NCBI RefSeq assembly: GCF_028372415.1
Contig: NC_092878.1
Span: 31,711,903 to 31,775,902, forward strand
Direction of reading: 5' to 3'
DNA: 64,000 nt
Source: Notamacropus eugenii
Lineage: Eukaryota; Chordata; Mammalia; Diprotodontia; Macropodidae
Shown here: positions 2,221 through 35,072 of the stretch, piece by piece
How positions within the stretch are numbered: the stretch's first letter is position 1
Layout: each line of letters begins with the position of its first letter
Position numbers and translations under genes: made by a program
The notes under the pieces: generated by a model
What the model was told of the DNA's origin: nothing
Seen by the model: the letters and a program-made list of their open reading frames with translations, nothing else
The model's database searches: none

Positions 2221-2264
2221 TTATGTGCTTCATGGTGCAAAAGAACAGAAAATATATTGGATGT

Positions 2265-2510: not shown

Positions 2511-2564
2511 CTTATCATTTTATTCTAATTCATTGGCTTTTGTATAGTAATGTGTACTTTTTAG

Positions 2565-2815: not shown

Positions 2816-2829
2816 AGCATGCTTTTCAG

Positions 2830-6930: not shown

Positions 6931-7011
6931 ATGAACACTGAATGAATATGCACTAAGTGAGGGATTTATGCAGATATGAAATAGTGTTCATTCCAAGCTG
7001 ACTTGCTCTAA

Positions 7012-7275: not shown

Positions 7276-7379
7276 TCACAATTCTAACTAGCTCCCTCTC
7301 AATGTCAAATTGAATAGGTTCGGGGATACAAACTACACTATTACCCTTCTTTAATATTTCAAGATTTGTGACTTGCACA

Positions 7380-8270: not shown

Positions 8271-10530
8271 GCTGATATTTAGGAAAAAAAAACATTTATC
8301 TTTGTACTTTCTCAACTCTATCCCCCCTTCCTCTCCCACATCCCAACCCTCCCCCCCCTCCCCCCACACACACATTATATACTGATTTTATGGAAAAATC
8401 CATTCTGAGTTCCAAACCACTTAGAAATGGATTTTGGGAACACAACCCATTGGTAAGCTGGAGTCCTCCTATATCCGTCTGCATTCATTGTTGGAGATTA
8501 TCTGGGAAAACATGGGCTTCCTGCCTCAGCCCTATTACCCAACTAGCCCTGAGCTGGGAGTGAAATCAGACTTGGGCACAGAGGATTTGAGCCTGAGTGA
8601 ATTTGTGTCTGCATTCCAAAATGAACTAGGGAGTATCTATTGTTTTATATTATTCACATTAAACTTTCTCCTTGATTTGGATAATTGGGGTATATCCCCT
8701 TAGAAAGGAGTTCGTTGGCAACCAAGCAACTAAAATCATTTTTACTACTCTATTAGAATATTATGAATAATAATTTATTTACACAAAATGTTCCCATTTT
8801 GCCAGTTGTTTCTGCAGGACAGGGGTTTCCACACTTAATTATATCACAGATTTTCAGCTTGAAATATATGGACAGAACCAAGAAATGCTGGACAAGGGTC
8901 ATGGTAAATGTATACAATACAAAACTCCAAAGATAAAGTGTTGGAAATTTTAAAGCACAAAAAAGAAAGAAAGAAAGAAAAAACTTAAACCCTTTTCACA
9001 TTTTAAAAATGGCACACGTAAAAGTTTTAAGTACATGCAATACTTTATAGCAAATTTTTTGGGGGGAGGGGGGCCTGGAAATATTGCTGACATTGGAAAT
9101 TTTCTCCCTGAACTCCTTTCTGAATCATTTGGAATACCAGGATTCTGGGAAATATGGTCTGGGAAACAATGTTCCAATACAAAAAGTTGTACATGATTAT
9201 TCCAGTTTCCCCAAGGGATCACTGAGACCCAGAAAGATTGCCTCACTTAGCACAAGCCAAGGAGTAGTTAGGTTATAGGGCCTTCTATATCTACTTTCCC
9301 TAAATTATTCAAATCAAAACCCTTTTCCCAGAAGTATTTCTCATATATGCTAATGCTACTACAGAGGAATAAACATAATCCACTGATTTATTTGGGAATT
9401 ACTGTTACTTGCCAATGAATTACTCCAAAAGGCAGAGCCAAGTAAGTGTCTTCAAGAGTCTAGATATGAGAGAATTACCAAAGTAGACCAGCTCTGCTCA
9501 CTTCACAATTTTGCCAGGATCAATCTTGTTCACATTGGTGTGTAACCAATAAGTATGGGCACTTAGTGATATGGCAAAAAGTGAAGGTTATCACTTCCAT
9601 GTTAAAATCAATCATTCTTCTTAAAACACACAGGTCCCTGACTTTCTCATTCAAACAGTCATTTTATCTGGAAATTCAGAAGTACAATGGTGGTTAGACT
9701 TCAAGTATAAAATGAGCAACTCACATGAGCCTTTCCATGGTCTGACCAGAATCATGAGACTTTAGATGTCATCTTATCCAGTTTATCCAAAATTTTAATA
9801 ATAACGCAAGCAGAAAAAAAGGACATTTTCTAGGCTTTAGAAGCAGGATTTCATTATCTTATACAGTATAAAGCTGAAAAGTTACACAGACGAAAAATGT
9901 AAAAGTCACCACTGTTACGTACTTAAAATAATGCTAGGGAAACAGCTCCAGCTCATACATGCAAGCTGATACGCAACATAGAGGAAGAAAGGATGAAGGC
10001 ATTTCGTTCTTGTATTCCTAGTGTAGCTCTAATGAAGCAGTTTGCTTCGGTCCAGAGTGGCCCTGGCACATCCTCTGAGCTCAGTGGCAGAGGAAAGGAT
10101 GGAGAGCTAACTGGAGGGGCACATAGAGAATGGTGGGTCCAGGATGACCTAAAGGACCAAACAAATATCAGTTTCCATTTCAACTGTAAAACCTGTGATC
10201 CAGTCCTATTAGATCTTAGGGTTCACCACACCACAGATGACCTGGAAATAGGGTGATTTTTCTGGTCCTCTGAAAACAAAAATCAGCTGAGGCTTCCCAG
10301 GGACCCACAGGGCCTCCAAATGTACAGTGCCTGACCGGTTCACTTTGTGTGGCTTTCCTCTTACCTACAAATAAGATGCAGCTGCTGTCCTCTTGTGGTG
10401 AAATCGAGAATTGCAGCTCCCTCTTTGTGAGCTCCAAATGACTGTGTCATTTTCTCAATGATTTCTCATAATGCAAGGGAAACCAACTGGATTCACTATA
10501 AATTTGTGTTATCTAGCTTCAGCTGGACCC
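8270..10530. other. No gene seen
   Basis: Unremarkable AT-rich sequence with a C-rich patch at 8322-8367, a GAAA run at 8960-8980 and a G-rich patch at 9060-9075. The open frames at 8434-8703 and 9993-10256 match nothing I know. Confidence 0.5.
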
Positions 10531-10705
10531 TCACTGGCAGCTAGTGGTACAGAGAATAGGGAGTTAAACATGGAATTCGGAAGACCTGAGTTCAAATCTT
10601 GTCTCAGACACTTACCTGTATGATCCTGGGCAAGTCACTTAACCTGTGTCTCAGTTTCCTCACCTTTAAAATTGGGATCATAATAGCACCTACCTACTGG
10701 TGTGT
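10530..10705 (+). mobile_element. MIR-type SINE
   Basis: Contains 'gacctgagttcaaatcttg', 'tgatcctgggcaagtcactt', 'ctcagtttcctcacctttaa' and 'ataatagcacctacct'. Confidence 0.85.
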
Positions 10706-10709
10706 ATTT

Positions 10710-10797
10710 GAATATGTATGTGTGCATACACATATATACACACCTACATACACATATATGCACACATATGTGTGTATATATATGGTATATATAATTG
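10710..10797. repeat. AC/AT microsatellite
   Basis: Alternating TATGTGTG, CACATATA and TATATATGG units follow directly on the SINE tail. Confidence 0.85.
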
Positions 10798-10846
10798 TGG
10801 CATAGTTATTATCATTATTAGGAGGTAACTAGACAGAAGAGTGTTG

Positions 10847-11055
10847 CTGTGTTGTTGTTAAGTCATTTTTCAGTCAGATCTGACTCTGCGTGATCCCCAT
10901 TTGGGGTTTTGTTGGCAAAGATAATAGAGTGGTTTGCCATTTCCTTCTCCAGATCACTTATAGATGAGGAAACCAAGGCAAACAGGATCAAATGACTTAC
11001 CCAGGGTCACACAGCCATATTTGAACTCAGGAAAATGAGTCTTCCTGATTAGCTC
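10847..11055 (-). mobile_element. Marsupial CORE-SINE (MAR1/WSINE1 type)
   Basis: Antisense copy beginning 'gttgttgttaagtcattttt', with 'ttgccatttccttctccaga'. The tRNA-like head is cut by the MIR that follows. Confidence 0.88.
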
Positions 11056-11210
11056 AGAGACTTTGGGTAAGTCACTTAATTTGTCTGCCTCTGCTTTGTC
11101 TTTAGTAAAATGCAAACAATTGCCTCCCAGGGTTTTTGTGAGGATAAAATGAATGAAATATTTACCATGCTTTGTACATCTTAAAGTGTTATATAAATGC
11201 TGACTACTGT
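11056..11210 (+). mobile_element. MIR SINE, 3' two thirds
   Basis: 'gggtaagtcacttaatttgt' through 'tttttgtgaggataaaatga' and 'tgttatataaatgctgact'. Confidence 0.8.
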
Positions 11211-11219
11211 TATGATTTA

Positions 11220-11660
11220 ATTCCTTCCTAACTGAATTCCCAACTCACAATTCCAGAGAAGCTATTCCAAACCTTTTCTTCTCTCAAGCCTCCCATACTT
11301 TGCCTGGAAAATTGAGGCCACTTTATTCCTCACAATGATCTCCTTCTCCTTCATGGTTATCCTTCATGCCTGGAATATAATACCTACTTATCTCTACATT
11401 ACAAAATTCCTCTCTTCCTTCAAGACATCGCTGAAGACCTTTTACATGGTCTTTCCACATTCTAGCACCACCACCCCTCCCTCTCTACTTTATATTAAAC
11501 TACTTTGTTTTCATTCTCTTTATTATTCTCAGTATGTATGTATATATGTGTCTATATGTGTGTGTGTATTTGTTGTCTCTCTCATTAGAGCATAAACTTT
11601 TTGAGAAGAGGGATTATTTCATTCATCGTGTTTGTATTCCCAGAGCTTAACGTAGTAGGT
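11220..11660 (+). mobile_element. L2-clade LINE 3' end with internal TG microsatellite
   Basis: L2 words include 'gcctggaatataatacctac' and 'agagcataaactttttgaga', and it ends near 'agagcttaacgtagtagg'. A TATG/TGTG tract (11532-11570) has expanded inside. Confidence 0.75.
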
Positions 11661-11945
11661 TGATTGTCTTTCATTCTTAAAGACAACCATGACATCATGA
11701 CTTGCAAGTGAATTGTTAACTGGGGCAGGGCTGTACAAAATAACCAGCCTCTCTCTCCCCTCCAGAGACATCTGGGTGCAAGTGGCAAGACATAGATCAG
11801 GAAGACTAGGGATGGCCCCAATGCAATAGGAGACCTTGGCCTTTTTTAAGCTAAGGTCTTTCCCAGGTCTCTGACTCAAGCAACATCCATTCAGTGATTA
11901 AAGCTAGGTGAGAAATGAGGCAAAGAAAGGCCACTTTTACCTACC
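11655..11945. repeat. Unnamed marsupial interspersed repeat, copy 1
   Basis: The text around 'agacaaccatgacatcatga' and 'catctgggtgcaagtggcaa', through 'agctaaggtctttcccaggt', resembles a repeat I have seen widely in marsupial DNA but cannot name. Its first 65 bases match, in reverse complement, the end of the block at 18130-18270. Confidence 0.55.
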
Positions 11946-12544
11946 CAAAGCAAAAAAAATCAATTTGGGAGGGGAAGACTGTCAGGGTTTCTGGCCAAAA
12001 CAGAGACCATTGCAATTTATACTCACTCAGAGCCATCAGAGCCCAAAGACCAAATGAGACTTGAGCTGGAACCTATGGTGGGACAGTTAATGAGAGCCAG
12101 AGTGATTTGGGTTTAAGGTATGGTCCTTAAAAAAGAAATCTAGCAGATATGACTACACATCTGTCATTTGAAGGCCAGGACCAAGTCTGGAGAGGTTCAT
12201 AGGCTCAGAGAGCCCAGAGGTCATCTAATCCAAATCCTTAGTGTAACAGAAATGTTTTTTGATCTTGGCCATAGAGGTACATAAGAACTGTATGTTGCAC
12301 ATTTTCAGACTTTTTCAAGGTATTGATCTGTTACGTTGATTTTTTTTTTGGTTATTTTCTTTATTATATTCAAAAACCCCAGCATATTTCCTTCCTTTGT
12401 TCCTCTGGAAGGGAGAGGGGAAAGGATACTAGGGGAAACCATGGTGATGTGGTAGAAAAAGACCTCAATAAAAACTTTTTTTTAAGAAATAGCAAATTTA
12501 ATGGACCATAAAGAAAGCATTTTTCATAACCTGGCCCTTTCCTG

Positions 12545-12945
12545 TCTTTCTAGTCTCCTTCTCTCCATCTGTCCTACAGTTCAAGGACAATGCCCATCTT
12601 GCTGAGGTTTTTTGGGTTTTTTTTAACAAAACACTCCACCTCCCAGCTCCATGCACCTTCCCTGGCTGTCCCCCATGACTCCTTCCCTTTCTCTGCCTCC
12701 CAGCATCCCCCACTTCCTTCAAGTCTCAACTTTCTGCAAGAAGCCTTTGCCCGGCTCCCTTGTTACCAGCGCCTTCCTTCTGAGATTACCTACAATTTAT
12801 CATATTTATTTACTTGTAGACAGTTGTTTGTATATTGTTTCCTCCACTAGGTTATGTACTACTCAATAGCAGAGACTACTTTTTGCCTTTCTTTGTATCC
12901 CCAGCAGATAATAAGCACTTAATAAATCCTTATTGATTTTTTTTG
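12545..12945 (+). mobile_element. L2-clade LINE 3' end
   Basis: L2 3' pattern: 'agaagcctttgcccggctcc', 'agacagttgtttgtatattg', 'ctttgtatccccagcagata', ending 'cacttaataaatccttattg'. Confidence 0.88.
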
Positions 12946-12984
12946 TTTGACTTAATTTACCTCCCTTTGGTATATATATGCCCT

Positions 12985-13228
12985 ACAGTGAAACTAGGTG
13001 ATGCAGTGGGTAGTGTTGGTCCTGGAGTCACGAAGACTCATCTCCCTGAGTTCAAATCTGGCCTCAGACACTAGCAGTGTGATCCTGGGCAAGTTACTTA
13101 ATCCTGTTTCCTCATCTGTAAAATGAGCTGGAGAAGAAAATGGCAAACTCCTCCAATATCTTTCTCACAAAAATCCCAAATGGAGTCCCGAACAGTCAAA
13201 CACAAGTGAACATCAACAAGAAATGAGG
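12985..13228 (+). mobile_element. Marsupial CORE-SINE (MAR1/WSINE1 type)
   Basis: Full-length plus copy with 'gagttcaaatctggcctcag' and 'aaaatgagctggagaagaaa', and a tail 'cacaagtgaacatcaacaag'. Confidence 0.92.
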
Positions 13229-13242
13229 AATATGAAGAATTC

Positions 13243-13260
13243 GGGGGGGGGGGGGGGGGG
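13243..13260. repeat. Homopolymer of 18 G
   Basis: Eighteen consecutive G residues lie just past a SINE tail. A run this long is rare, hard to sequence and can form a G-quadruplex. Confidence 0.95.
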
Positions 13261-13784
13261 AACAATCCCATCCAACTGAATAACAACAATATACTTTTAA
13301 ATGCATTAACTTGGGAAATAATATGGCGTGACATTGACCTCCCACCTGCTTGACATGGACATTGTGAGAATCAATGAATTAATAGCTACAAATGCCTTTG
13401 GATTTCATGGGAGAAAACCTCTAAAGAAATATAAGGTATAGTATAGAAGGAAAGAGGGTTGGCCTGAAAAAAAGAAAATGGTGGTGGGTATTGAGGGAAA
13501 ACCATTTGGAGATCAAAAACTGTCTGGAAGTGATTGACAAGGTATTAGAACATATGACTGAATGTTTCCTTTTACTCATTACTCCATGTGTCTTATGTTA
13601 AAGCAGTGCTTAGTGCCTGGCACACAGTAGGTACTTAATAAATGTTAGCTGACTGTGGCTGTACCAACAAAATGTAATTTTGAAGGTTGGCTTACAGCCA
13701 ACTTTGACAGAGGTTCCTTACAAGACATTCAAGGAACAGAAATTCCTTAGTCTTTGACTGATGTGGAAATAGAGCTCTCCAGAG

Positions 13785-13813
13785 CTTGTGAATTGTGTGA
13801 GACAATTCACAAG
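13785..13813. repeat. Perfect 12-bp inverted repeat with 5-base loop
   Basis: CTTGTGAATTGT, loop GTGAG, then ACAATTCACAAG. The stem is perfect and would form a short hairpin on either strand. Confidence 0.9.
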
Positions 13814-14129
13814 GAAAAGGACCAATATGGTTTCTTCCAGACACCTGTACCCTGGAGGACTCCTTGCTGAGTGAATGGGAAAGCCGCCATATCTTCTCGT
13901 AGCTCCACTAGGTAAAGGCAACTAGCATACCTTGTTACTATGGTGATGACAGTCATAAAATGGCCAAGATCAAAGGGCATTTCTATGACACTAAGCTCAT
14001 AATAAGACATTTTCTAAATTCTCTGTGAAATAGACTGACAGTTTTGTTTTTTAAACTGAGCAGAAAAATGACTTCTTCCTATCTTGAACTGCATGATTTT
14101 CTTTTTTGAGAGTAGTAGATTAAAATATT

Positions 14130-14365
14130 TTTTTGGTCCAGAACATTGCTTTCATGAATAGAGGAAGTTCCTAGTAAGGAAACTCCTTCTACCGGTACAC
14201 ACTGGCATATGTTCTCCAATTTGTAGTCTTATATACTGAGAGGAGACTGAGAGGTTGTTATTTACATAGTCACAGACCAGTGTATGCGTGACAAAATCAG
14301 GATTTAAACCTAGAACTTCCTGACTCTAAGACTAGCTTCTCACGATGCCATGGTTTGCCTCTCAC
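14130..14365 (+). mobile_element. SINE-like repeat family B, copy 1
   Basis: It shares the order 'tgctttcat', 'ctagtaaggaaactcc', 'ctccaattt', 'agtc', then 'gatttaaacctagaacttcc' with the element at 20124-20353. The second half is MIR-like. I do not know the family name. Confidence 0.6.
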
Positions 14366-14689
14366 CAAACACTGCTCAGAAGACCATAGAATTTGGGCTG
14401 GAAGGCACCAGAGGAGCCATGCAGTCCACTCCCTTCATTCCACTTTTCCTACCCCCAGTCATCTGTGAAAAATAGAATGAACTCAACTGTAACAATGTCG
14501 AATTAAATCAATTGTGTTTTTTGAGGAAGATGGGAGCAATGGAAGGAACCTTGGTATAGAGGAGTCAGAAAGAACTGGGTTTGTATGCTGCCTTTGACAT
14601 GACCACACACAAGTCATTTAAGGATATGTAACTCTCTAAGCTTCCCTAACAGGACCATGGAAGGAACCTTGGGCATTCTCTCCCAATCC

Positions 14690-14815
14690 CCTCATTTTAC
14701 ATTTGAAGAAATGGAGGTACAGAAGTTTAAATAATTTGTCAAAGGTTACACAAGACATTCTGCAAAAGCTTTCAAGCTCAGGTTCTATAACTTTCCATTG
14801 CCACATGTTGCTTCT
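14690..14815 (-). mobile_element. MIR SINE remnant
   Basis: 'tttacatttgaagaaatgga' through 'gtcaaaggttacacaagaca' is antisense MIR. Confidence 0.65.
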
Positions 14816-15640
14816 CCCAGATTTCTTCCTGTTGATGAGAACTGTTGAGTTTCCACAAAATCACATAACTTTGATAAAGTGACCTAATAATGAAGGTGAC
14901 TTTACTCTTCCTTTCAGACTGGAAAGAAAAATGTTGTCAGAAGAAAGAAAATTAAGTGGGGAAGAGAATTTTGAAGAATAAGTAACAAAAATGACAACAT
15001 TCCAGCTGGGCATATTAACTGACCCTGGCATATGGCACAGCACTGAAGCTATGTGTTTCAGGGATATTTTTAGATGAGTTTTGTAGGGACGCCAGGGTCA
15101 GTTCATTTGGATACTGTTATCCAAATGGTTCCAATTTCACTTTCCCCTGTAATTTGCATATTCTCATCTGACAATGCCATGATGAACATCATTAAACGTT
15201 TATCATAAAGCAATTACATATTATTTAAACTCTAAGCATAAGCGTATGAAAAATGGATTGACTGTGATGTGACAAGATCGCATTGTGTAGTATAAGAAGT
15301 AGGGAAAGGCTGGATGCTCGAAGAGCTTAGAAAACTCGGCAGAGGAATTCAGCTTTGATATGGTACACTGTAGGTTGTTGATAATCTTGACATTATAATA
15401 ATCCCACACATTTATGTAGGTCTTGGTGGTTACAAATGCTTTGAGTATCACTTCATTTGATCCTGTCACCAATTCTGTGAGGAGTAATTTGCTTCAAAGT
15501 GTTTTAGAGGATTCATCTGGCAACGGTACGTAAAATGGATTGGGGGCAGGGAGGAAGGAAGAAGCCAGGGGAAAAGACTAGAGGCAGGAAAGCCAATTAG
15601 GAGGCCATTACAGTAATAGGAATCGAAATAATGAGGCAGC
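14815..15640. other. No gene seen
   Basis: AT-rich sequence without a recognisable element or coding signal. Confidence 0.5.
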
Positions 15641-15870
15641 CAGGTGATAGAGGATAGAGTCAGGAAGACCTGAATTCAAATGTGATCTCAGACATTTACC
15701 AGCTGCATAACCCTGGCCAAATCACTTAACCTCTGTCTGCCTCAGTTTCCTCAACTGTGAAATGGGAATAATAATAGACCTATTTCTCCAGGATTGTTAG
15801 TAGGATCAAATGAAATAATATTTGCAAAGCACACAGTGCCTGACACACAGTAAGGGCTTAATAAAAAAGT
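15640..15870 (+). mobile_element. MIR-type SINE, nearly complete
   Basis: 'gaagacctgaattcaaatgt', 'ctgcctcagtttcctcaact', 'gcacacagtgcctgacacac' and 'agtaagggcttaataaaa' in order. Confidence 0.88.
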
Positions 15871-15876
15871 TGTTTT

Positions 15877-15951
15877 CTTCCTTCCTTCCTTCCTTCCTTC
15901 CTTCCTTCCTTCCTTCCTTCCTTCCTTCCTTCCTTCCTTCCTTCCTTCCTT
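15877..15951. repeat. (TTCC)n microsatellite, about 75 bp
   Basis: A nearly perfect tetranucleotide array grew from the tail of the preceding MIR. It yields spurious lysine/glutamate/glycine/arginine repeats in the minus frames. Confidence 0.97.
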
Positions 15952-16199
15952 GGACATGGGTGTTGGTATTGGGAATGAAGAGGAAGGGACAAATCTATTC
16001 TCAAAGGAAAAAATGGACAAAACATAGTGAATGACTGGATGTGAGAAATGAAAGAGAAAAAGCTCCCAAAATTACTCAAAAGTTTCAAGCTTCAAAGACT
16101 GCAAGAACAGTGATGCTTTGGATAAGGAGAAAAGGGAACCGATTTAATGCAGTGAAGGAAGATGATGAATTTAGGTTTAGACAAGTTGAGCAGACAATG

Positions 16200-16360
16200 A
16201 CAGGCAACAGAAAGAACGCTAGAATCAACCACAGAAGAGGTAGGTTCTAGTCCAGACTCAGTTATTTATTAGGTGTGTAACCTTAGACAAGTCTCTGCGT
16301 CTCAATTTCCTCAACTGTACAATATGGGCATGAGATCACTGGCCTCAAACTTCAATTACA
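16200..16360 (+). mobile_element. MIR SINE remnant
   Basis: 'ttctagtccagactcagtta', 'acaagtctctgcgtctcaat' and 'ttcctcaactgtacaatatg'. Confidence 0.7.
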
Positions 16361-17290
16361 TGTTTAGGTTTAAAACGCTCATCTTTTTACTTTAGTACTA
16401 TTTAAATGCTTATTTCTTTTCCCCCAAATTTAAAAGAGTAGAATACTTTTTATGCATAGGACTACCTAAATATTATTTATATAAATATAAATATATAATA
16501 TTTATCAGATCTGTGCAATCTGAACTGTGACTTGTTTCCGAGATTATAGGATTCTGAAGGTCTCCCCCCAACTCTGACATTCACCTGGAAGAGTTGCACG
16601 ATTCTCATTCATGGGGGTACCCTCTCCAATGGTACAGATTACAATGAATACACACCTCGTCATGCTGTGATTACTGCCCATGTCCTCCCAGCACATCTCC
16701 TCCACAGGGGTCTGCCCAACATCATCGGAGACCTTCCCTTGCCAGGACAATGAGGTAATAAGGTAGTATATAATAAATTCATAATGATGAAGGTTCAGAC
16801 AAAAGTAGAATCAATACTTAATGGAACCAGGGCTGAGAAAAAGAGATGCACGAAATTGTGTCATTGACATAATAGGAAACCAAGCTCTATAACTTGTTGT
16901 TCTATAGGACTGTATAGGCATACAGCAGGTCAGCTTAGTACAAGGCCAGCCAACCTGTCCTGAGGTAGACCTGATGGTGAAGGTCTTAATGGATGGCCAC
17001 CACAAAATGGGTGTTTTCAGCCACAGGAGTTCATGACAAGTGTCTATTAGGACATGGAGAAGTTGCAATTTACATTAGTGGAGTGAAGAAATCGTGAGCC
17101 TTTTGAAATAAGTAGTATCCCTCAGCAAAGGTGGGTCAATCAATCAACTAGCATTTATCAAGTGCTTCCCAGGGTATGAAAGCTGATAATGCAAAGGACA
17201 AAAGAGTCATTGCCCTCAAAGAACTTAGATTTTAAGGAAGAGAACAGAGTTCTGAGTTCTGTGTATGTGAAATACAGGCTGTATAACTAC
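16360..17290. other. No gene seen; unclassified repeat-like block
   Basis: 16395-16510 is very AT-rich. 16540-16750 is denser in GC and open on both strands, with no protein I know; it begins with 'gattctgaaggtctcccccc', like the tail of MIR/L3-type repeats. 16890-17080 is also unassigned. Confidence 0.4.
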
Positions 17291-17292
17291 AT

Positions 17293-17510
17293 TAGTTGGG
17301 AAGCTAATTGGCACAGTGAACAGAGGACTCATCTTCTGAGTTCAAATCCAGCCTCAGACACTTACTACCAGTGTGACCCTGGATAAGTCACTTAACTCTG
17401 TTTGCCTCGGTTTCCTCTTCTTTAAAATGAGCTGGAGAAGGAAAATGGCAAACCACACTCCAGCATCTGTGCCAAGAAAACCCCAGATGGTTTCATGGAC
17501 ACCACCTTTA
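17293..17510 (+). mobile_element. Marsupial CORE-SINE (MAR1/WSINE1 type)
   Basis: 'gagttcaaatccagcctcag', 'aaaatgagctggagaaggaa' and 'ccaagaaaaccccagatggt'. Confidence 0.9.
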
Positions 17511-17604
17511 CCTAACTACAAGTTTTTACTCAATTCAGAATGGAATATTTTTCCATGGGAACACTTTTTGCATTTGATAGCACTAGACAGTGGTATGATG
17601 AAGT

Positions 17605-17790
17605 GAACTGAGAGTTGCATTTGGAGTCAGGAAGTAAACAAGCAGTTATTAAGTTCCTGACCTATGCCAGGTACTGTGTTAACAGTGAATGATACAAAGG
17701 AAAGTGAAAACAAAACAAAAAGACAATCTAGGTGTAAGTCTTGCCTCTGAAACCTAAGAGTTGCGTGACTCTGGGTAAAGTCACGAACTC
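17605..17790 (+). mobile_element. SINE interrupted by an L2-tail-like insertion
   Basis: The SINE text 'gcatttggagtcaggaag' stops at 17634 and resumes at about 17730 with 'aggtgtaagtcttgcctctg'. Between them lies 'taaacaagcagttattaagt' up to 'aaaacaaaaagacaatct', which looks like the antisense end of an L2-type element. Confidence 0.6.
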
Positions 17791-18129
17791 TTCAGACAAC
17801 TCTCTGAGACTATAAGTTGTGACAAACAGATGCCAATCTGCATTGGTAGCCCCCAACACCACTGAAATTACAAGTCAGCCCCCAAAAAATGGTAGTTCAT
17901 GAAAAAGGAAGATTAACATCTAAAGAAATTCCCTTTACAGCTTTGTGTTGGGAACATAATCATGAGATTCTTGGTTCTTTAATCAATTACAATTAAAATA
18001 GGTTCACATTTTTATAGTGCTGTATCATTGACAAAGGGCTTTACCAAGCAACAGAAGCTTGGCCTGGCAACTAATATTGGCCACACTGTAAGCCCCATGA
18101 AAGCAGAGACTACAGTATTTCCAGTCATC

Positions 18130-18270
18130 TTGACTTTTATTTTGCCTCTGGACTGGAGGAGAGAGTGAAGCTGATGACTTTGCCAAGCTCTGCCTCACTT
18201 CAATCCAATTTACATGCAAGTCAAGACACCACGCTTGTCATGTCATTCCTTGGTCCTTTTCGAGAAAGAA
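18130..18270. repeat. Unnamed marsupial repeat, copy 2 (inverse orientation to copy 1)
   Basis: 'tgatgactttgccaagctct' and 'tttacatgcaagtcaagaca', then 'ccttttcgagaaagaaggat', match in reverse complement the start of the block at 11655. Confidence 0.5.
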
Positions 18271-18329
18271 GGATGAACGATACCTTTACAAAAACTAACT
18301 CATGGGATTTTAACAGTAATCTTTTCAAG

Positions 18330-18470
18330 TAACTTGTACAAATATGACCAATCTCATTTTACAGATCAAGAAACTGAGACTCAGAGAATTTATGTAACAT
18401 TGTTGGCAACTGGAAGAGTCAAGATTCAAACCCAGAATTTCTGACACTGAAGTGAGTACAATATTGATTG
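18330..18470 (-). mobile_element. MIR SINE remnant
   Basis: 'ttttacagatcaagaaactg' through 'gattcaaacccagaatttct'. Confidence 0.75.
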
Positions 18471-18984
18471 ACAGAATAAGGACAGAGTTAGGAAACAGCA
18501 TGCTCTTTACTATGTCCAAAAGTCAAGATATCACTCTGTCTTGGTCAAACAACAACAATTATTACAAGACATAAAACTGGAGAAAGGGTAGGAGAAGAGT
18601 AAACTGGTAAAAAATGTCAGATTGTTAGTTTATTTTCCTGTTTAGAAAAGCTGGTTAAAAAGAAAATTGAATAAACTCTCATTTTTAATTTCCAGGTGAG
18701 CTACTAACTCTCCATCAGTACACATATAATTAGGATCCAAGATATTAATGGAAACTCTGAAAGTCACATGAACCTTTTCTCCATGACAACGGCGGGGGTG
18801 ACTAACCAGGCATTTCCTGCTTTTACAAAGATACAGATATTTACTGAAGTATAATGCAGTCCAAGGAGCCTAATGGAAATGGGTAAGTATACCTAAATCA
18901 ACACCAGTACCAAGTTACTGATATAAGTGCATGCATTTAGTCAATCCCAAACATAGCCTTCTGGATTACTGGGTGAGAAGAACT

Positions 18985-19115
18985 GAAAGGAAACATTTAT
19001 TAAGCATTTTCTTTGTTCCAGCAACTGTGCTAAGCACTTTACAAATATTCTCTCTTTTAATCTACACAACAAGCCAGTGCAGCAAGTGCCGTTATTATCC
19101 CCATTTTACAGTTAA
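18985..19115 (-). mobile_element. MIR SINE 3' part
   Basis: 'aacatttattaagcattttc', 'ctgtgctaagcactttacaa' and 'ttattatccccattttacag'. Confidence 0.8.
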
Positions 19116-19272
19116 GACATTATGATAGGGAGCAAATCCCTCCTTTATATGTGGGTATACAAAGCCTAGAAAAGGGAAATAGTGGGAAAGGACCAAAGAG
19201 GATGTAATAGGGGTTTTTTTAAGTCAATTAATAAAAGACAAAGCAAAACCAAGAAGGGATAAAACATAGTAC

Positions 19273-19504
19273 CTTCAATGCTCTGTGGACCCACAAGATT
19301 CATAGCCTGATGAGCCGCATATTCTACACGGGGCCTAGCAATGCCCAGCTGTTCCATCACTCCATGGAGCAACCTCTAAATATCTGCTTCTGAAACTCGG
19401 TCTGGAGTCCGAGGACTATGAGCAGATGATAGAGTCCATCCCAATGCTAGCCAAAACACCATGTTGTACAAGACAGCGCTCAGCATCATGGAGTCTATTG
19501 TCCC
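19273..19504 (-). pseudogene. SCG5: SCG5 (7B2) exon 2-like copy with one in-frame stop
   Basis: The minus strand encodes MMLSAVLYNMVFWLALGW (a signal-peptide-like start), then SPRTPDRVSEADI, a TAG stop (19378-19376), [19 protein letters not shown] and [16 protein letters not shown]. This matches the N-terminal exon of secretogranin V/7B2, the chaperone and inhibitor of prohormone convertase 2. Over the 49 residues after the signal peptide I count two differences: Q to stop and P to A. It is flanked by a tract plus AG acceptor (tttttttgcag) and a GTACTATG donor, so it is a genomic copy, not a processed one. No other SCG5 exon was found. Human SCG5 lies beside GREM1 about 11 Mb from TP53BP1. 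It could be a segmental duplicate, a relocated gene with a CAG-to-TAG change or base error, or an assembly misjoin. The exon identity is firm; the functional status is not. Confidence 0.85.
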
Positions 19505-20123
19505 CTGCAAAAAAAGGAGAAACCAACTATCAATCGGCCACAAGGAGAAAGGGGGCTGTGTGGTTTTCAAAAAAAGGGAATGGTAGGCAATTGAAACTTT
19601 AGGTTACTAAGCTTGACAGCAAATTCTGGTAAAATTCAAGGTTTGTGAGTGTTTAGAAAGGGAAGAGGTGATTACTGTGATCCTGCATGGGTGTAATAAG
19701 AACAAGGGAAGTCAAATGAACCTTATTTCTTTTTGTTGTCAAGGATTTGAACATAGTATATCTTGATTAACAAAGCCTTTTATAATACTCTTTTGGGCAA
19801 GATGGCAAAATGTGGACTGGCTAACGGCATAGTTAGGTAAATTCAGAACTGGCTGACTAACCAGACCCAAAGTGTGGTGATGAATGGATTGATTGATGTC
19901 AGACTGAAGGGAAAAGGGCTATGATGGAATGAAGCTAGATCCTAATCTAGCTCTAATCTATTCAAAATTTTCCCAATGATTTAGTGGAAGAAAGATATAG
20001 GTGGCATGCATTTAAATTTTCAGATGATACATAGCTAGGAGCAGCAGCTAATACACTAAATAACAGACCAGTGATCCAAATGAGTATGGATCAACTGAAG
20101 CTAACAAGGTGAAATATAATCAT

Positions 20124-20353
20124 GAGAGGGATATGGTACAGGTCTGTGCTTTCATTGGGATAGGGAGCTCCTAGATAAGGAAGTCCCTCTAACGATGCAA
20201 GTCAATACTCTCCAATATATAGTTTCAGAGTTGCCCAGAACATTGATTTAAATGACTTTCCAGGGGTCACTCAGCCAATATGGGCCAGAGGCTGGACTTG
20301 AGCTCAGGTTCTTCCAGTGTTAAAGTCAGATTTTCATTGTAGTGCCTCTCTAT
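20124..20353 (+). mobile_element. SINE-like repeat family B, copy 2, with target-site duplication
   Basis: It is flanked by the direct repeat AATATAATCAT at 20113-20123 and 20354-20364. This marks a retroposition into the L3 element. The internal order matches the copy at 14130-14365. Confidence 0.7.
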
Positions 20354-20839
20354 AATATAATCATAGATTAATTAAAAAAAAAAACCTTTGTATATGTGGA
20401 AAAATATATTAAAGATAAAAGTCCTCTATTTGGGCTTAAAAACACAGCTATCAAGTATAGGGCAGGAGACATGTGGATATATAGCAATTAAAGTGAAAAA
20501 AATCTGGAGGATCTGATGGATCAAAAACTCCATACAAGTCAATAAGTATGATGTGGCAATGCAACAGCAAAATCAAATGCAATTTTGGTCTTTATTAATA
20601 TTCAAAGGCAAGGCGGTGGTAGGTGGCCCTGCCCTTCTCTGGCTGATTCAGACAACATATGGAGCATTGCATCCAGTTCTAAGAAGTGAGCCCCTAAGAA
20701 GGGGTTGATCAAGGAAGTGAGGAGACTTGAAACCATGCCTTCTAAAGATTAAAGGAACTGGAATGTAAAGCCTAGAGAAGATTGAGGAGACAAAGGAATG
20801 GTTGCCTTAAACTTCTGAAAGTTTCCAAAGGGCCACAAT

Positions 20840-20990
20840 TTGGAGCCTTCATTTTACAGATGAGGAAACTGAGGCCCAGAGAAGAAAAATTACTTGCCCC
20901 AAGAGATGCATAGCATAGGTGGGAATTTGAACTCAGGTCCTCTGACTCTCCATCCAGGACTCTTTCTACTGCACCACACTGAGTTGGTCC
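20840..20990 (-). mobile_element. MIR SINE inside the L3 element
   Basis: 'attttacagatgaggaaact', 'gaggcccagagaagaaaaat' and 'gggaatttgaactcaggtcc' are antisense MIR. L3 text resumes after it. Confidence 0.88.
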
Positions 20991-21084
20991 TGGACAACAG
21001 AACATGGAACCATGAACAAAAATTACAAGGAAGCAGATTTCACTTTAATAGAAAGAAGAACTTCCTAACAATTGACTTGTTTTG

Positions 21085-22190
21085 CCAGCGGGGCCCTGGG
21101 GCGGGGGCTGGGTGACGCAGCAGGGCCCTGGGCAGAGCATCAGGCGTCCAGGTCCCACGATGCCACAGAGCAATGAAAGGCCAGCAAAGATCTCTGCTCA
21201 GCAAAAGCAGCCACTTGCCAGCCTTCTCAGAGAAGTGGAGGGCCGGGTTTGAGGGCCTTAAAAAGTTCTGCCTTTTACGCGCCAGGCAGGAGACCCGGAG
21301 GACCTGGCACAGGCTGTACCAATCCCTCCAGCGTGGGAGGAAGGTTCTTCGGCTCCAGAGGAAGTGGGGCCAGAAAACGGGCCTGGCTGCTCCCCATAGC
21401 TACCCAATCCCTGGCACTGTAAGCCCCCACATCCGGGGGCACCTCGTTGAAAGCCTGGCAGCATCTGTTGAGAATGCTGCCCAGGAATGCCAGTCAGAGG
21501 AAGAGCCCCGCACGGCAGCAGCTGGCTTGCCAGTGGGCAGTGTGTTAGGTCAGGCCAATGGCTGCAGGCAGAGGACTGACCACCAGGATCCTGGCAGGCT
21601 CAGGACAGCCAGCAGGGAGGGCCAGGTGGAGAGCAGCCCCACCTTAGTCACCTTGAGGAACCATAAGGGAAATGGTTGTTACTGCAGCTGCTACCAAGGG
21701 CTGGGCCCAAACATAATGGAGCCGGAGCAGCCGTCCCTAACTCCGGGAAGGACCCAGCTTAGCCAGCATAGTGGGGAAAAGGATATCACTGCTTCGGGTG
21801 TATAAGGAACTGTCCATGATTCCGTTTGGGTACCGGATCCTGAGGTCCCCCCAGTTTAAATCGAGGAGAACGTGTAAGCTTCGGACAGGCCAGCAGCGGA
21901 GCTGGGTGCAGAAGTTCGCCAGGGGCCATAGGGAGAAGCGCCAGGAAGGCTGCCAGAGGGTACTTGTAGCTCATTCCCTCACTCAGGTCCCAATAGCCCC
22001 GGCTCCCCTCCCTCAGGTTCCTTTCCCAGATATGGACTGCAGCGCCTTAGGGCCCACAGCAAAGGGAAAGAACTCAAGAACACCCAGTAGCCCGGGGCCC
22101 AGAGCCATGTGTCGGAGACGCCCTCCCTAGTCAGCAGAATGGCAATGTCACCCATGGTTGGGATCCATCCCACTTCACCAGACTGAGCAG
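21085..22190. other. Unidentified GC-rich block with a 210-codon open frame
   Basis: The block starts abruptly where an L3/CR1 relic breaks off (after 'cttgttttgcca') and ends before an L2 tail. It is clearly GC-richer than its flanks. On the plus strand it has open frames at 21173-21805 (MKGQQRSLLSKSSHLPAFSE...) and 21771-22130 (MGKRISLLRVYKELSMIPFG...), and a third start MPQSNERPAKISAQQKQPLA at 21161 that soon meets a stop. The mix of frames suggests a decayed retrocopy of an mRNA, but I see no poly(A) tail or target-site duplication and recognise no protein family. A chance long frame in GC-rich DNA is also possible. Confidence 0.35.
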
Positions 22191-22199
22191 TGAGATAGT

Positions 22200-22560
22200 C
22201 TCACCCAAACACACCAATCCAACCTATTTTTCTACTACTCCAATATTCCTTCTCCAGTTAAAGCAATTTAATCTCCTTCCTGTTCCAAGAACACAGCATG
22301 ATCTTCCCTGCCTCAGTTTCTTCTCTCTTATTGTTCCTCTCACTTGAAATGTCTTCATTTCTCCTTTCTGCCTAGTATTAACTCTCCTTAAAGCCCCACC
22401 TATTCCAAGAAAGCTTTTCCTATCTTTTCTAGCCTCTTCCTTCTCTTAACCATACAGTAGCAAACAACCAGATTGTTTGCTACTGTTTCATATAACCTTT
22501 GATTTTCAACTGGAACACAAGCTCCTTGAGAGCAAAATACTGTGAACATACACTTTGTGT
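22200..22560 (+). mobile_element. L2-clade LINE 3' end
   Basis: 'aaagccccacctattccaag', 'aacacaagctccttgagagc' and 'tgcctcacccaatac' follow the L2 tail order. Confidence 0.75.
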
Positions 22561-23527: not shown

Positions 23528-24429
23528 CAGTCCTTTGATGAGGTCTGAGCTTCTCTTTTAGGTTAAGTTGTTCCTGGGGCCTTAGTTCTGGGCAACTTGC
23601 CCATTCTTTCTTGGCCACAGCCTTGGGCTGGGACTCCCCTGCTTCCTGCTGAACACTTAGTAACTGCAGAGGTGATCTTAGAGGTGTCACCTTCTCTGCT
23701 CGAACTTCCTGCCCTTTCACAGGGACAGCGACCTAGACAGAATACCCGTTAGTTCTCAATGACAAGCTAGATTAGGGTGGGTTTCCAAGGATAAATACTT
23801 GAAATCAAAGGAGATCATCCCACAGGGGCAGAACCACACATCCCACTCCCCAGGCAGCAAAGAGCTTGAGAAAGGGGAGATCAAGATGCTACATTTGGTA
23901 AAGAAGTTCAAAACAATGCCCTCCTTTTATTCCCGGTACAAGAAACTGCTGAAACATTTTGGCATAGTAGATGGAGGATCAGCCAAACGGTCACCCACTG
24001 GTTTCCGTGGCAGAAATAATACCCATCGTACAGAGAGCCAAAGGGCCCTGTTGTACCCCCACTTCTCCTGTCGTGTGGTCCCTCACCCTGCTTTCGGAAT
24101 CCCCCGCTCCTCCCCGGGCACTCCGGCCTCTTGGGTTCTCTCTCCAAATCTTCTACCAGGGTCACGGCTTCCTCTCCGCTCTCTGGACGATGCTCCTGTA
24201 CCCAGGGCTGACTCTCCCCAGGCAGGACGGTCAGGAATTGCTCCAGCACCAGGGTCTCCAGGATTTGCTCCTTGGTCCGAACCTCTGGCCGTAACCACCT
24301 ACAGCACAGCTCCCAGAGCTGGCTGAAAGCTTCCCGGGGCCCAGCCACCTCCTGGTAGTGGAATCTCCGGAACCGCTGTCGGAAGGTCTCCGAGTTCCCC
24401 ACATCGCCTCTCAGAGCGGACTTGGCCAT
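23528..24429 (-). CDS. ZSCAN29: ZSCAN29, first two coding exons (SCAN domain); gene partial in window
   Basis: The first coding exon, 24429 down to 24087, starts [20 protein letters not shown] and carries a complete SCAN domain with family signatures such as [18 protein letters not shown] and [16 protein letters not shown] domains mediate dimerisation between zinc-finger transcription factors. The second coding exon, 23732 to 23528, starts [10 protein letters not shown] and ends before a GTAAGA donor; it matches the ZSCAN29 linker. The human protein continues with two Myb/SANT-like modules and six C2H2 fingers. None of these was found in the remaining 23.5 kb of the window in the transcribed direction. 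Exon 1 with donor G|GTGAGG is 343 nt and ends in phase 1, but exon 2 reads in phase 0. One G fewer would give a perfect CAG|GTGAGG in phase, so an extra base is suspected. The gene lies head-to-head with TUBGCP4. Confidence 0.9.
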
Positions 24430-25745: not shown

Positions 25746-28700
25746 ATGATCCACGAGCTGCTCTTGGCTTTGAGCGGGTACCCGGGTGCCATCTTCACCT
25801 GGAACAAGCGGAGCGGCCTCCAGGTACGGCCCACCCTGAAGGGAGCGCTAATTGGAACTCCACCTGACGGGGAAAGCAAGGGGCGGAGTTAAGAGTGCCA
25901 GTGTTTAGGGCCGGGGCGGGACCTGGGGGGGGCGGGGTAAGGCGGTCAGAGGGGCGGGACCCTGGGAGTAGGGAGCGTGGACGGACTGCGGGGCCTGCGG
26001 TGGAGGAGCGGGGGGCGGGGCTTGGCCTGGGAGCCGCTAATGAGGGGGCGGAGCCTGGAAAAGGGCGGGAGGGGGTCGGCTCCCGGGGCTCTGGCGCGGG
26101 CTGGGGTAGAGGGGCGGGGCCACGACCGGGGTCTGCGCGAGAGGGCTGAAGAGAATGAATGGCCGAGGGAGAATTGTGTCACTTCACCCTGCCTGCCTCA
26201 GTTTCCTCATCTGTAAAATAAGCTAGAGAAGGAAAGGGCAAGCAGCTGCAGCGTCTGCCTAGGAACCCCAAGACGGTCCAAGGTGATTGCGGACCCTGCG
26301 CTGTGTTTTACGGTAACCAGCCCGGTCTGTAAGAATTAAGAAATGAAGCAGGCGGGTCAGACTTCTCCGAGGTCCGAGGTCCGCCCCCGCCTTGGCCGCC
26401 TCACAGCAGGGGTCCCCTGCCAGGCTCAGGCTGCCCTTTGACCCGAGCCCCCCTCCAGAGGCTCTGACCGTGCAGCCCCTCCTACGAGCCTCTTCTCCCT
26501 TGGACCCCCTGCTGGGAGAAGCTGCCCGCGCTGCGCCCTCTTCGTTCCTGACCCTCTGCAGTCTGTCTCTTGACCCCATCATTCAACGAAACTAGACTCT
26601 TCAGGTTACTAATGGTCTCTTTATTGGCAAGTCCTTGCTTCAGTATTTGACGTTTTACGCCCCCCCCAGCCCCCAGCTCCCGGACACTCCTCTCTCAGTT
26701 TGTAATACTTAATTTCCCCCCACCCGACTTTTGCCTACGTATGTGACCACTCCTCAGCTCCCCGGATGCAGGTGTGCCTGTGCCCTCTCCTTTCTCAGGG
26801 ACCTCGTTATCTTCCCCCCGCGGATGGCATCCTGCCTGGATATGCAGCCTTAGTCTCTTTCCCTGCATAGACACCTCACACCCTGCCCGTTAGGTATTTT
26901 AAACCAGGTGTTTTATAAGAAATTCAAACTCCACGTGTCCAAAAAGCCCTCCTCTCCATCCCTGAATCTCCTTTTCCTCCTGCTGACTTCCCGGTTCCTG
27001 TCCAAAGCTCCGTCTCCCCAGGCTCCCAGCCCAGATCCAGCCTTCCCTGTCCTTCTCCCTTAGCCTCCGTGTCTATCAGCGAGTCCTGCCTCTGCCTCTC
27101 ACACCCAAGCCGCCTCCTGAATGCATCCTCCCCGGGGTTCCCTTCTAAAACATGGACCTGACCATTTCCCTCCCCTGCCCAAGGAGCATTCCTAGCTCTG
27201 GCTGGGCTCTAGGCTCAGACTTCTCCACCGGGCATGGAGTATACCCTCACAGTCTAACTCCGGAGTGATCGATTAGACATGAGTACCCTTGACGCACTCC
27301 CTTGCAGCCAAACTGAGCCCATGCAATTCCCTTTCTCCTCCTTGTGCCTGTCACAGGCTGTGCCCTCTTCCTGGAGGCCCTTAGGTGCCATCTCCTCCAT
27401 GAGGCGCCGGCCCGCAGCTGCTAGTTCTCCCCTTGAAAAATTGTATTGTGTACGTTCTGTATTGACTTGCTTGCAAATATGTCGTATCTCCGCAGTGGAA
27501 TACTTAGATCCTTGAGGAAAAGGACGATTTTTCTTTGCCTAGCACAATGCCAAGCCTATAATGAGAACTTAATAAATACTTGCTGATTGATTATCTGCTC
27601 CTACTTGCATGCTAATGAATGCTGCTAGAGGAAGTCCCAGCACTGCTAATTAGGTCTTCCACAAATGGATATTACTTAATCTTGACTTGGCCTTCACTTC
27701 TGCTTGCCAGTTCTCTTCCCTGATTGACCTTCTGTCGTACTTGTCTCCCACCCCTTCCCTGCTCCCTCTGGACAGCAGGTCTCAACTCACACTTCACTCA
27801 AAGTTCAGGACTGTTCATCATGAGCTTCCTCTTCTCCTCTGTGGAATGTTAAGGGAATTTGAAGATCTTCTTTGACCATTAATAGACACATAGAGCCCTG
27901 GCTACAGGGAGTTTCTAATTAAGTGCTGGGGCACCTTCAAGCTCCTGAGCACTCAGCCAATCAGATGCCAAGTCTTTGTTATATATTCTGGGAGTAGGCA
28001 TTTGCTTTGGGGGTCCACTCATAAGAAGGATCTTTGGATTTCTTTGATTTCCTGGTGGAGATTCTGAGTAGCCATATGTTCGGAGCCCACACATCTCCGC
28101 CCCACACCCCGACTGCTCCGATGGCTGTGCTCCCTCAATCCAGTGATGTACATAAAGTGTACAGCAATATTGCTTTACCCAGACTGTTGGAGTTCTGTAT
28201 GTCTTTGTGCTAATTTCTCTGCTTGCATTTTCTCCAAGTTCAGGGTGCTGACTTTTCCCCTGAACTAGTGAATGTAATTAAAGTAGGATTGTTAACCCCT
28301 TTTTGAGCAGTCTTTCCTTTAAAAGCAGATCAAAGAACCTGTGCTAGCAGGCCATCCTGGGTGTGCTAGGGTGCTTGCTAATATACTCTGTTATGTACTT
28401 CAAATCATCTCGGTGTTATCCTCTCCTTTGCATTAGTCAAGGAAGAAGACATGGCCCTTCTCTTCACTAATGCCAAAGCCTCTACTTCAGAGATTCCTTG
28501 AACTTGGTTTTTTTTTTTTAACAGTTTGATAACATTTTCAATATAATTAGTTCTTTTGGCAATCTCATGCTTTTTATTTTTGCATATTTACAAACTTTTC
28601 TGAAAAAGGGGTCTTTGGCCTTCACCAGACATGATCTGCCAAAGGAGTCCATGACACAGTAAAAATGAAGAAGCCCTATTCTACTAAAACCTTTGATCAC

Positions 28701-31700
28701 CTCCTCTCCTATCTCCTCTGGGAACTTGCTCTTTCAGATATCTCTTTGCTCTCCCAAATTTCTAATCTCTCCCTGTCCACCGGCTCTTTCCATGATGCCC
28801 CATAAACATGCCAGCTGTTTTCTGTTAAACTTCTAGAAAAAGCTGTCTGCACTCATTGCTTCTACTTTCTCATTTCCCACATGTTTTTCAACCTCCTGCA
28901 TCCTTGCTTCTGTCCTCACCACTTGGCTAAAGTTACTGTGTATAAGGTTACCAGTGATCTCTGTATTATTAATTCCAGTGGTCTTTTCTCAGTCCTCATC
29001 ATTCTTGACTTCTCTGCCTCCTCTTTCTGACTTTCCCATCTCTGGATTTGTATGACATTGTTCTTTCATACTTCTCTTCCTCTCTGCTCTACCCATCCTT
29101 CTCAGTCTCTTTGCAGGATCTTCATCCATATCCTCCCGTAAGCACTGTCCCTGGGTGGGAGCACCACAGTGCTGGGTCCTGGACCCTCTTCTCCTTTACC
29201 TCTACTCTTTTACGGTGTTCACCTCTTGTTCCCGTGGGACCAACTGTTATCTCTTGGCAGATAGCCCTCATCTCAGTCCTGAGCTCTGGTGCCACATCTC
29301 CAACTATCCGTTAAACAACTGAAACTCTGAGTCATCCTTCATTCTTCCTTTAGCCTTTTCGTCCCCCAGGGATCAATCTGTTGGTAAGTCATACCTCTTC
29401 TGCCTCCATGACATTCTCACCTACGTTCTTTTCTCTCCTCTCATGGGAGCCTTCCTACTTGTGGTCCTCATCACCTTTCACCTGGACTATTGTAGTAACC
29501 TCTGATTTGCACTCCCTCCCTTTTTTCAGTCTGTTCTTTTTATGCCAAAGTCATATCCTTAAAGAATAGGTTTAACCATGCTACTCTTCTGCTCATGAAG
29601 CTTTAATGGCTCCCTGTTGCCTCTAAAATCAAATGCAAATTCACCAGTGTATGCCTTGAAATTGGAATAACTTTCTAATTGTTCTCCTTGCATCTGGTCT
29701 CCTCTTCTTCAGTCCACCCTCCACAGAGCTACCAAAGTAATGTTCTTAAAGCATATGTATGATCTTGTCATTCCTCTGCTCAAGGAGTTTCAATGGTGAT
29801 TTTTTGGCACTGGAAAAAAATTCAGACTTTTTTTGGGGAGAAGGGGAAGGGATCAGAGACACTTAAAGCCCTTCCCAGTTTGGCTCCAGCTTTTTTTTAC
29901 ACTAGGGTTACATATTACTTTCCTTTATATACTAAATGTTCCATCTGTACTGGGTTCTATTTATTCTTAGGAGAGAGCACCCCATCTCCTCTCTCTATGC
30001 CTTTACCCATGCTGTGCCCCATGCCTAAAAGGCTTTCCTTTTTCATTTTGCCTCTTGGGACCCCGCTCTCTTCAAGCTTCAGCTCAGAAGATAAGATGCC
30101 TCTTCCCATTTCCCATTTGTTGATACCCTTCCCCCATGACTTTTTATACATGTTGTATTTACTTATCTGTATTGCTCAGTATGATGTAAACTCCTTAAGA
30201 GCAGATGCAGCTGCATTTTTCCTCTGTTGCTCACCGTGCCTGTCCCAGAGGTGCTCAGAAAGTGGTCGTGAAATTGAAGAGCTCAGCCAAGGAGAAGGAG
30301 TCGGCGCTGTTCTTCCTCTTCTTTTTGAATTTTTTTGTGTTTAACCTGTGGTTTGGGTGGATTTTTTCCCTAAACTTTCCAAATTTAGCAACTTAGAAAG
30401 TTGTCTTATTTATAGACTTTCTCATCTTTGGTATTTAGTGAAGTGATAGGGTTTGAGAAGAGGAGAATTCTCTTACTTTTTTTGTTTAATTTCTTCATAC
30501 AATTGCCTTGCATTGTCTCTTGAGTAGTTTTTTTTTTTTTTAAGTTTTCATATGCATATGTTGGTGTGCCTCTTCATATCCCCTACAACTAGCACAGTCC
30601 TGGGCACACAGAAGGTGCTTGGTAAGTGTTTATTTATTGGTGGAATGTTAGAGATGGCAAGGCTGAAGGGATTAGGAAGGAAAAGGTAATTGCTTATTAC
30701 ATAGCTGCCTTGACCTCCTTCCAGATTATGAAAGTCCATTCAGGTGATGGATTCAAAATGTAGAATGAGACATTTTTTAGACCTAGACAGTACAAGAATT
30801 TGTTTGGCCCAACTATACACATTTATTACAGGGGTTTTGTTTTTCTTTTTTTCTTTTTAATGAGAGAGAAGGAGAGAAAGAAAATAAATGCTTGTTAATT
30901 GAAATTTTACATTTAAAAAATAAACACCATTTTCTTTTTAAGTGATATTTACATGAACAAAAAAAACTCAGTTTTTTATAGTCTATGATGAATTTGTTAT
31001 AATCACTTTAAAAAGATGCCAGTAATGTGCAAATAGTTATATTTTACAGAACTCTTCTGATAAATACACCTCACAAAAGGCAGAATGAGGAGAAAAAAAT
31101 GTCATCATAAAACATTTGGAGAAAAACATCCTGTCATTATTGTAAAGCATTTGGAGTATCCTCAGGGTGGGAGTCAAATGAATCAGAGGCATCTGTGTCC
31201 TTAATGTTGTTACCACTTTTGTAGGTGTCACAGGACTTTCCGTTTCTCCATCCGAGTGAAACCAGCGTCCTGAATCGACTCTGCCGCCTTGGCACGGACT
31301 ATATTCCCTTACAGAGTTCATTGAACGATATACAGGCCATGTGCAGCAGCAGGTGGGTGGTCGGCCCTTGAGGACAGTGGTGATGTTTTTTATACGTCTT
31401 GCATTTGGGCTCAGAAGAGCGCCAAGTATCGGTAGTATTAATAGTAACATTAATAACAGTGTTACGAATAATATTAATGACAGGAACATTTATAGAGTCA
31501 CTGAATTTGAGAATTAAATAGCCCAAACTCTTACTACAAGCAGTCCTTGAAGACTTCTAAAGGGAGAGAATTCATTACTTCCTGAGGTAACCCATTCCCT
31601 GCTTGGATAGGTCTAAGTCAGGGGCGGGGAACCTGCAGCCTCATGGCCACATGTGGCCTTCTAGGTCCTCAGGTACAGTCTGTTGATTGAGTCCAAGTTT

Positions 31701-35021: not shown

Positions 35022-35072
<51 letters not shown>

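Follow-up and report, generated by a model that had tools for sequence, protein, structure and literature searches.

The window analysed here is the whole 64,000-nucleotide stretch C24:31711903-31775902 of the Notamacropus eugenii assembly (C24 denotes contig NC_092878.1), and the 3.445-Gb assembly served as the search space. The window carries part of an SCG5 (7B2) copy, a fragment of ZSCAN29, a copy of TUBGCP4 and part of a copy of TP53BP1. The features, in window coordinates, are as follows.

1..22206, minus strand: SCG5-derived segment, with intron 2 (1-19272), exon 2, and the intron 1/promoter side (19505-22206)
19273..19504, minus strand: SCG5 (7B2) coding exon 2, probably of an unprocessed pseudogene copy; TAG in frame at 19376-19378
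22206..22209, no strand: duplication junction; similarity to donor SCG5 upstream sequence ends at 22206 and similarity to ZSCAN29 intron 3 begins at 22209
23528..23732, minus strand: ZSCAN29 exon 3, with acceptor and GTAAGA donor; the last ZSCAN29 exon found in the window
24124..24429, minus strand: ZSCAN29 exon 2, SCAN domain (aligned part)
25746..52775, plus strand: TUBGCP4 copy, 17 coding exons; frame shifted by the loss of one base near 31306, in exon 2
55463..62210, minus strand: TP53BP1 copy, 3' exons (BRCT part); no Tudor exon match is listed to the right of the window

The SCG5 exon and its neighbours in the window

When translated, the minus strand at 19273-19504 yields the initial coding exon of 7B2, interrupted by a single TAG. 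A tblastn search of the whole window with human 7B2, a sequence that Pfam assigns to Secretogranin_V, matched this exon at 79.7% identity over 74 residues (E 4e-34). The exon is entered through the acceptor CTCCTTTTTTTGCAG, preceded by a long pyrimidine tract, and ends in GAAG before the splice donor GTACTATG, the coding match stopping exactly at GT. The first-pass annotation had placed an N-terminal 7B2 exon on this strand, flanked by an acceptor and a donor and with one in-frame TAG in place of a conserved Q. The tblastn alignment and comparison with a stop-free SCG5 locus bore out the identification, both splice sites are present, and the corresponding codon of the stop-free locus is CAG. 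Its count of 47/49 identical residues became 46/49 on the tblastn alignment, taken from the equivalent of human Tyr27 (after the signal peptide), with the changes Y>H, Q>stop and P>A.

The human 7B2 search found no second convincing SCG5 match in the 64-kb window, and the genome-wide 7B2 search placed exon 3 of this copy ~18 kb to the left of the window. Pfam returned no family for the exon, whether queried in two pieces or with X at the stop, and PDB gave no match for one exon piece or for human 7B2. Rfam at gathering thresholds and a tRNA scan of the window found none. The exon holds 5 CpG, a number reached by 11 of 950 windows from the left region and by 153 of 1785 from the right region; such retention hinted at constraint, yet it also fits a recent origin. 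A perfect (CTTC) repeat of 18.8 units lies at 15877-15951 of the window, and matches to SINE consensus sequences together with a low CpG content point to a marsupial source. On the other side of the junction, the ZSCAN29 query matched exons 2 and 3 only, i.e. a 5' fragment, and nothing convincing was found in the 64-kb window for ADAL, GREM1 or zinc fingers.

The stop-free SCG5 locus and the window copy

A genome search with the exon gave 22 matches, 21 on C24 and 1 on C2. The 7B2 search located a stop-free SCG5 on the same contig as the window, 12.5 Mb away, with exon 2 at C24:19253941-19254165, exons 3 and 4 and the terminal exon downstream, and no stop in the four matched exons; GREM1 at C24:19142933 adjoins it. 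The short exon (residues 168-180) and exon 1 gave no separate match in this search; the SCG5 gene is described as six exons over 55 kb with a non-coding exon 1 (PMC1936990). The first-pass annotation had suggested looking for a complete stop-free SCG5 elsewhere, and this locus beside GREM1 at 19.25 Mb is free of stops in the four exons matched. A relocated gene, one of its proposals, is thus wrong, since the stop-free SCG5 still adjoins GREM1. Its other proposal of a young duplicate was right: the window holds a recent, intron-containing duplicate of SCG5 on the same contig.

Window positions 18238-22206 were aligned directly to this donor locus, and 1-18237 were assigned by the spacing of exon 3, which lies 37.6 kb from exon 2 in the window copy vs 38.4 kb in the donor. 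Identity was 96.2% over the 2807 bases of 18238-21044, within the range of a segmental duplication (>1 kb, >90% identity), and 92.3%, gaps included, over 20337-22206. The introns of the two copies differ by 46 substitutions in 2465 positions (K2P 0.0189; 98% alike, gaps aside). Exon 2 differs at 3 of 232 bases (229 identical), so that the exon belongs to the SCG5 family by its likeness both to human 7B2 and to the stop-free exon. All three differences are nonsynonymous: R to S within the signal peptide, the Q codon turned into the stop, and P to A.

The window copy keeps exons 2, 3 and 4 and the terminal exon at donor-like spacing, with splice sites. The exons are not fused without introns, as in a processed pseudogene, and the match halts at the splice donor. 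The terminal coding exon was read in two units, the window's own among them, and in both it is 97.9% identical to the donor with a broken frame; together with the TAG of exon 2, this leaves no intact SCG5 reading frame. Because introns are retained and the terminal exon is present with a broken frame, the copy is an unprocessed pseudogene; it extends from the promoter side as far as the terminal coding exon and seems to span the entire gene. Any product would be cut short by the stop and by the frameshift of the terminal exon, from which we infer that the exon does not serve a 7B2 function. A duplicate lacking the last SCG5 exon was considered and rejected, as both units read contain the terminal one; probe L078, predicted from the donor at ~19.31 Mb, mapped to 19.159 Mb and so corrected the idea of a truncated duplicate. 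If neutral change is assumed to run at ~2.2e-9 per site and year, the SCG5 copy would be ~4 million years old and its spread would have taken place <1 million years ago.

The match on C2 (C2:345856315-345856921) consists of SCG5 exons fused together with several stops in the 7B2 search and is, judged from its sequence, a retrocopy of SCG5. It is dead like the window copy, but the window copy keeps its introns and splice sites.

The composite unit and its array on C24

A typical unit is ~266 kb long and holds a piece of ARHGAP11A, SCG5, the 5' end of ZSCAN29, TUBGCP4 and the 3' part of TP53BP1; it was sampled at exons and with 700-base probes, and copy number and order are as in the assembly. 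Exon 2 has 20 array matches in two C24 clusters, 12 at 29.9-33.1 Mb and 8 at 54.5-56.3 Mb, in both orientations. Neighbouring copies are 245-272 kb apart in 16 of 18 pairs, the other two being 305 and 457 kb apart. A probe downstream of SCG5 detected at least 20 copies plus the donor at 19.159 Mb among the best 40 of 2673 candidates, and an ARHGAP11A-side probe detected 21 copies plus the donor at 19.279 Mb. A probe inside TP53BP1 detected at least 21 copies, one of them the fullest TP53BP1, at 54.35 Mb, among the best 40 of 7030 candidates. GREM1 matched C24 strongly at a single place, its own locus, and therefore lies outside the array.

The TAG was found once in each of 19 of the 20 exon-2 copies, in the identical codon in all 15 copies compared, and exon 2 lies ~24.6 kb from TUBGCP4 in 19/20. 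The base error and the assembly join that the first-pass annotation had entertained for this exon are thus unsupported. Because it is present in 19/20 copies, the TAG would have been fixed before or during the spread. The exon-2 sequences fall into four classes (9, 6, 4 and 1 of 20). Divergence between copies averaged 0.0033 K2P (105 pairs, 15 copies), and identity between four units was 99.6-99.7% over ~27 kb, gaps aside. Around exon 3, four of 12 array loci gave ~98.5-98.7% over 3.17 kb, again in the range of a segmental duplication. The clusters did not separate in a tree built from 15 of the 20 copies (5 changes vs a shuffled mean of 5.2; few branches well supported). Expansion and homogenisation may have proceeded by unequal exchange between long, near-identical units, and the intermixing of copies from both clusters at a mean distance of 0.33% would go with such exchange. 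Taken together, we put a probability of roughly 0.94 on the reading that the window exon belongs, as exon 2, to an unprocessed SCG5 pseudogene within a composite unit present in ~20 copies in two C24 clusters.

The junction at 22206/22209 was mapped from both sides and shows no long homology (one junction read). The ZSCAN29 intron 3 side matched the copy at 31.46 Mb, which has Myb exons, at 98.2% over 1886 columns with 10 mismatches. The ARHGAP11A RhoGAP exons and adjacent sequence in the clusters derive from 19.279-19.281 Mb. Along C24 the donor order is the SCG5 side (19.159-19.257 Mb) and then the ARHGAP11A side (19.279-19.281 Mb), whereas the unit, in window orientation, has the ARHGAP11A side and then SCG5; the blocks are swapped and their orientation is kept, as in duplications by way of circular DNA. 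DNA of the ARHGAP11A-SCG5 region (donor C24 ~19.16-19.28 Mb) was copied along with its introns and now adjoins ZSCAN29 intron 3. The swapped pieces are as expected from a DNA circle or, with the same block order, from a brief tandem duplication at the donor, and this step is less certain.

ARHGAP11B, a single gene of the human lineage, duplicates part of ARHGAP11A, which neighbours SCG5; the array has ~21 partial ARHGAP11A copies joined to other genes. The only ARHGAP11A C-terminal exon match listed in the clusters, at C24:31422520-31422948, is partial, lies left of ADAL and may mark the opposite edge of the donor DNA. For the exon of query residues 43-76, identity to the human query was 71-74% in the array and 82% in the donor, a change exceeding that expected from the ~2% DNA divergence elsewhere. 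At C24:32007010-32011344, a distance of 2-4 kb separates ARHGAP11A exons from a TUBGCP4 exon (exon 14 of the copy at 32.01 Mb); the unit there was probably cut by an inversion or deletion, and its TUBGCP4 copy is probably truncated.

Parts of the neighbourhood that took up the SCG5 sequence were also located. ADAL exons and ZSCAN29 Myb exons adjoin one TUBGCP4 copy at 31.44-31.49 Mb, where some ADAL matches list stops that may be intron read-through. This is the only ZSCAN29 copy found with Myb exons and ADAL, and no SCG5 exon-2 match lies within 190 kb of it. The TP53BP1 N-terminal exon was found once, at 54.3056 Mb, where a second short match lists a TAG. The Tudor exons of TP53BP1 are present in 19 copies in the clusters; the second one contains TAA in 18/19, the sole TAA-free one being on the side of the N-terminal exon, and the copy read at 33.06 Mb has its TAA within the exon and has lost the acceptor as well. 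The two ends of the ancestral ADAL-ZSCAN29-TUBGCP4-TP53BP1 neighbourhood thus appear to lie in different clusters, ~23 Mb from each other, and a rearrangement may have divided a single array. ADAL matches at C4:417607181-417607924 are fused and carry stops, and look like an ADAL retrocopy.

Chromosome type was assessed with PHF6, which we take to be an X/Y gene in marsupials. PHF6 exons are single on C25, the better-matching and X-like copy, and diverged on C63; the genome search found none on C24, which does not fit a sex-chromosome amplicon. Because PHF6 is on C25 and C63 instead, C24 (171.2 Mb) looks like an autosome, with C25 and C63 behaving as X and Y. An X or Y location of the array was rejected by this placement, although C24 could be a neo-sex chromosome. 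The diverged PHF6 exons at C63:320393-395292 mostly occur twice in inverted order, consistent with a Y-linked palindrome.

TUBGCP4 copies and rival explanations

A TUBGCP4 exon gave 20 genome matches, every one inside the clusters. Eight copies were read exon by exon and all eight have the 17 coding exons, but only the one at 30.98 Mb is clean and fully intact. The copy at 33.09 Mb has an open frame and has lost the exon 7 donor. A common nonsense codon interrupts exon 11 of those at 30.18, 30.45, 30.71 and 31.48 Mb, and the exon 16 acceptor is lost too at 30.18 and 30.45 Mb. The copies at 54.44 Mb and in the window carry frameshifts that differ from each other. Stop and frame counts of exons 2, 11 and 13 in all 20 copies matched the exon-by-exon readings and revealed broken copies at 31.25, 54.70 and 54.96 Mb, so that TUBGCP4 is broken in at least 10 of 20. 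Besides the probably truncated copy at 32.01 Mb, this leaves eight copies, which have no lesion in these three exons. Compared with the window copy, TUBGCP4 exons of three copies showed 14, 7 and 6 substitutions in ~2030 bases (0.69, 0.34 and 0.30%), or 15, 9 and 7 differences with indels included, vs whole-region divergences of 0.39, 0.37 and 0.35%. These three comparisons give no clear sign of constraint on TUBGCP4.

The array is young, high in copy number and built of long units, which would suit a selfish array with meiotic drive like that of mouse R2d2, or one favoured for extra TUBGCP4; the 17 coding exons in all eight copies read, one of them fully intact, also speak for this. With at least half of the copies broken and exon substitutions not clearly below the regional average, however, there is no visible sign that selection keeps many copies working, and we hold this reading to be unlikely. 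Its more specific form is a long shot: a selfish, drive-like array holding all detected TUBGCP4, in which most copies decay privately and one or a few are kept. TUBGCP4 is a gamma-tubulin ring component, and if this reading is true the cargo would be one that acts in spindle assembly. Such arrays are also difficult to assemble, and over 3.2 kb several copies show few differences or none (e.g. 31.274 and 54.722 Mb), as would be expected if an assembler had falsely duplicated or over-expanded one or few copies in the animal. Four exon-2 classes, copy-specific TUBGCP4 lesions, both orientations and flanks that differ (ADAL with the ZSCAN29 Myb exons at 31.44-31.46 Mb, the TP53BP1 N-terminal exon at 54.3 Mb) argue against such an artefact, and haplotype duplication would not put copies >20 Mb apart in mixed orientation; we regard it as distinctly improbable.

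The GTAAGA donor of ZSCAN29 exon 3 and the SCG5 acceptor lie 4 kb apart on one strand, so the SCG5 exon might be spliced as a cryptic exon to the ZSCAN29 fragment, as the first-pass annotation had suggested. This is very unlikely. The window holds a 5' ZSCAN29 fragment, no SCG5 exon match lies near the ZSCAN29 copy that keeps its Myb exons, and the TAG ends the 7B2 frame; neither of two exon-2 donor choices tried opened the ZSCAN29 frame, so that no ZSCAN29-SCG5 fusion frame resulted, a weak point, as the donor may have been chosen wrongly. Strong conservation of the protein and intact splice sites would also be seen if the TAG were a base error and the window the true SCG5 locus, but a stop-free SCG5 lies elsewhere with GREM1, the TAG recurs through the array, and the terminal exon is broken in both units read, which makes this reading next to negligible. 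We therefore retain the array of composite units with an SCG5 pseudogene.

Mosaic segmental duplications of this kind are known and the present instance is new. In the parts of the open-access literature on SCG5/7B2, ZSCAN29, TUBGCP4, TP53BP1 and ARHGAP11A that came up among the matches listed, the array is not described. Recent mosaic segmental duplications include human ones for which an origin from circular DNA has been inferred, with swapped order in one orientation as the signature (PMC7450558). Those duplications and the array both consist of high-identity, intron-containing blocks from distant loci, with A-B turned into B-A, orientation kept and, here, one resolved junction without long homology; unlike those cases, the composite occurs ~20 times in two clusters, with a single junction resolved. 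Mouse R2d2 (PMC5144960) is a comparable copy-number-variable locus with a duplicated gene, Cwc22; drive was measured there, whereas the array is known from one assembly and its genes are unrelated.

A function of the exon itself is not likely, and the array is the finding. It holds every detected TUBGCP4, while the fullest TP53BP1 and the ADAL-ZSCAN29 flank lie in clusters ~23 Mb apart, and it is a natural case of a single-copy housekeeping locus surviving amplification. It informs how copies homogenise or vanish and how distant donor DNA enters a repeat. Annotation from a single window could yield false SCG5, TUBGCP4 and TP53BP1 genes.

At the edge of the array, a divergent (89%) exon-2 copy at C24:29935309-29935517 is split, has no TAG in its matched pieces and lies without an adjoining TUBGCP4. 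This copy at 29.935 Mb may be an early-branching one that could date the stop.
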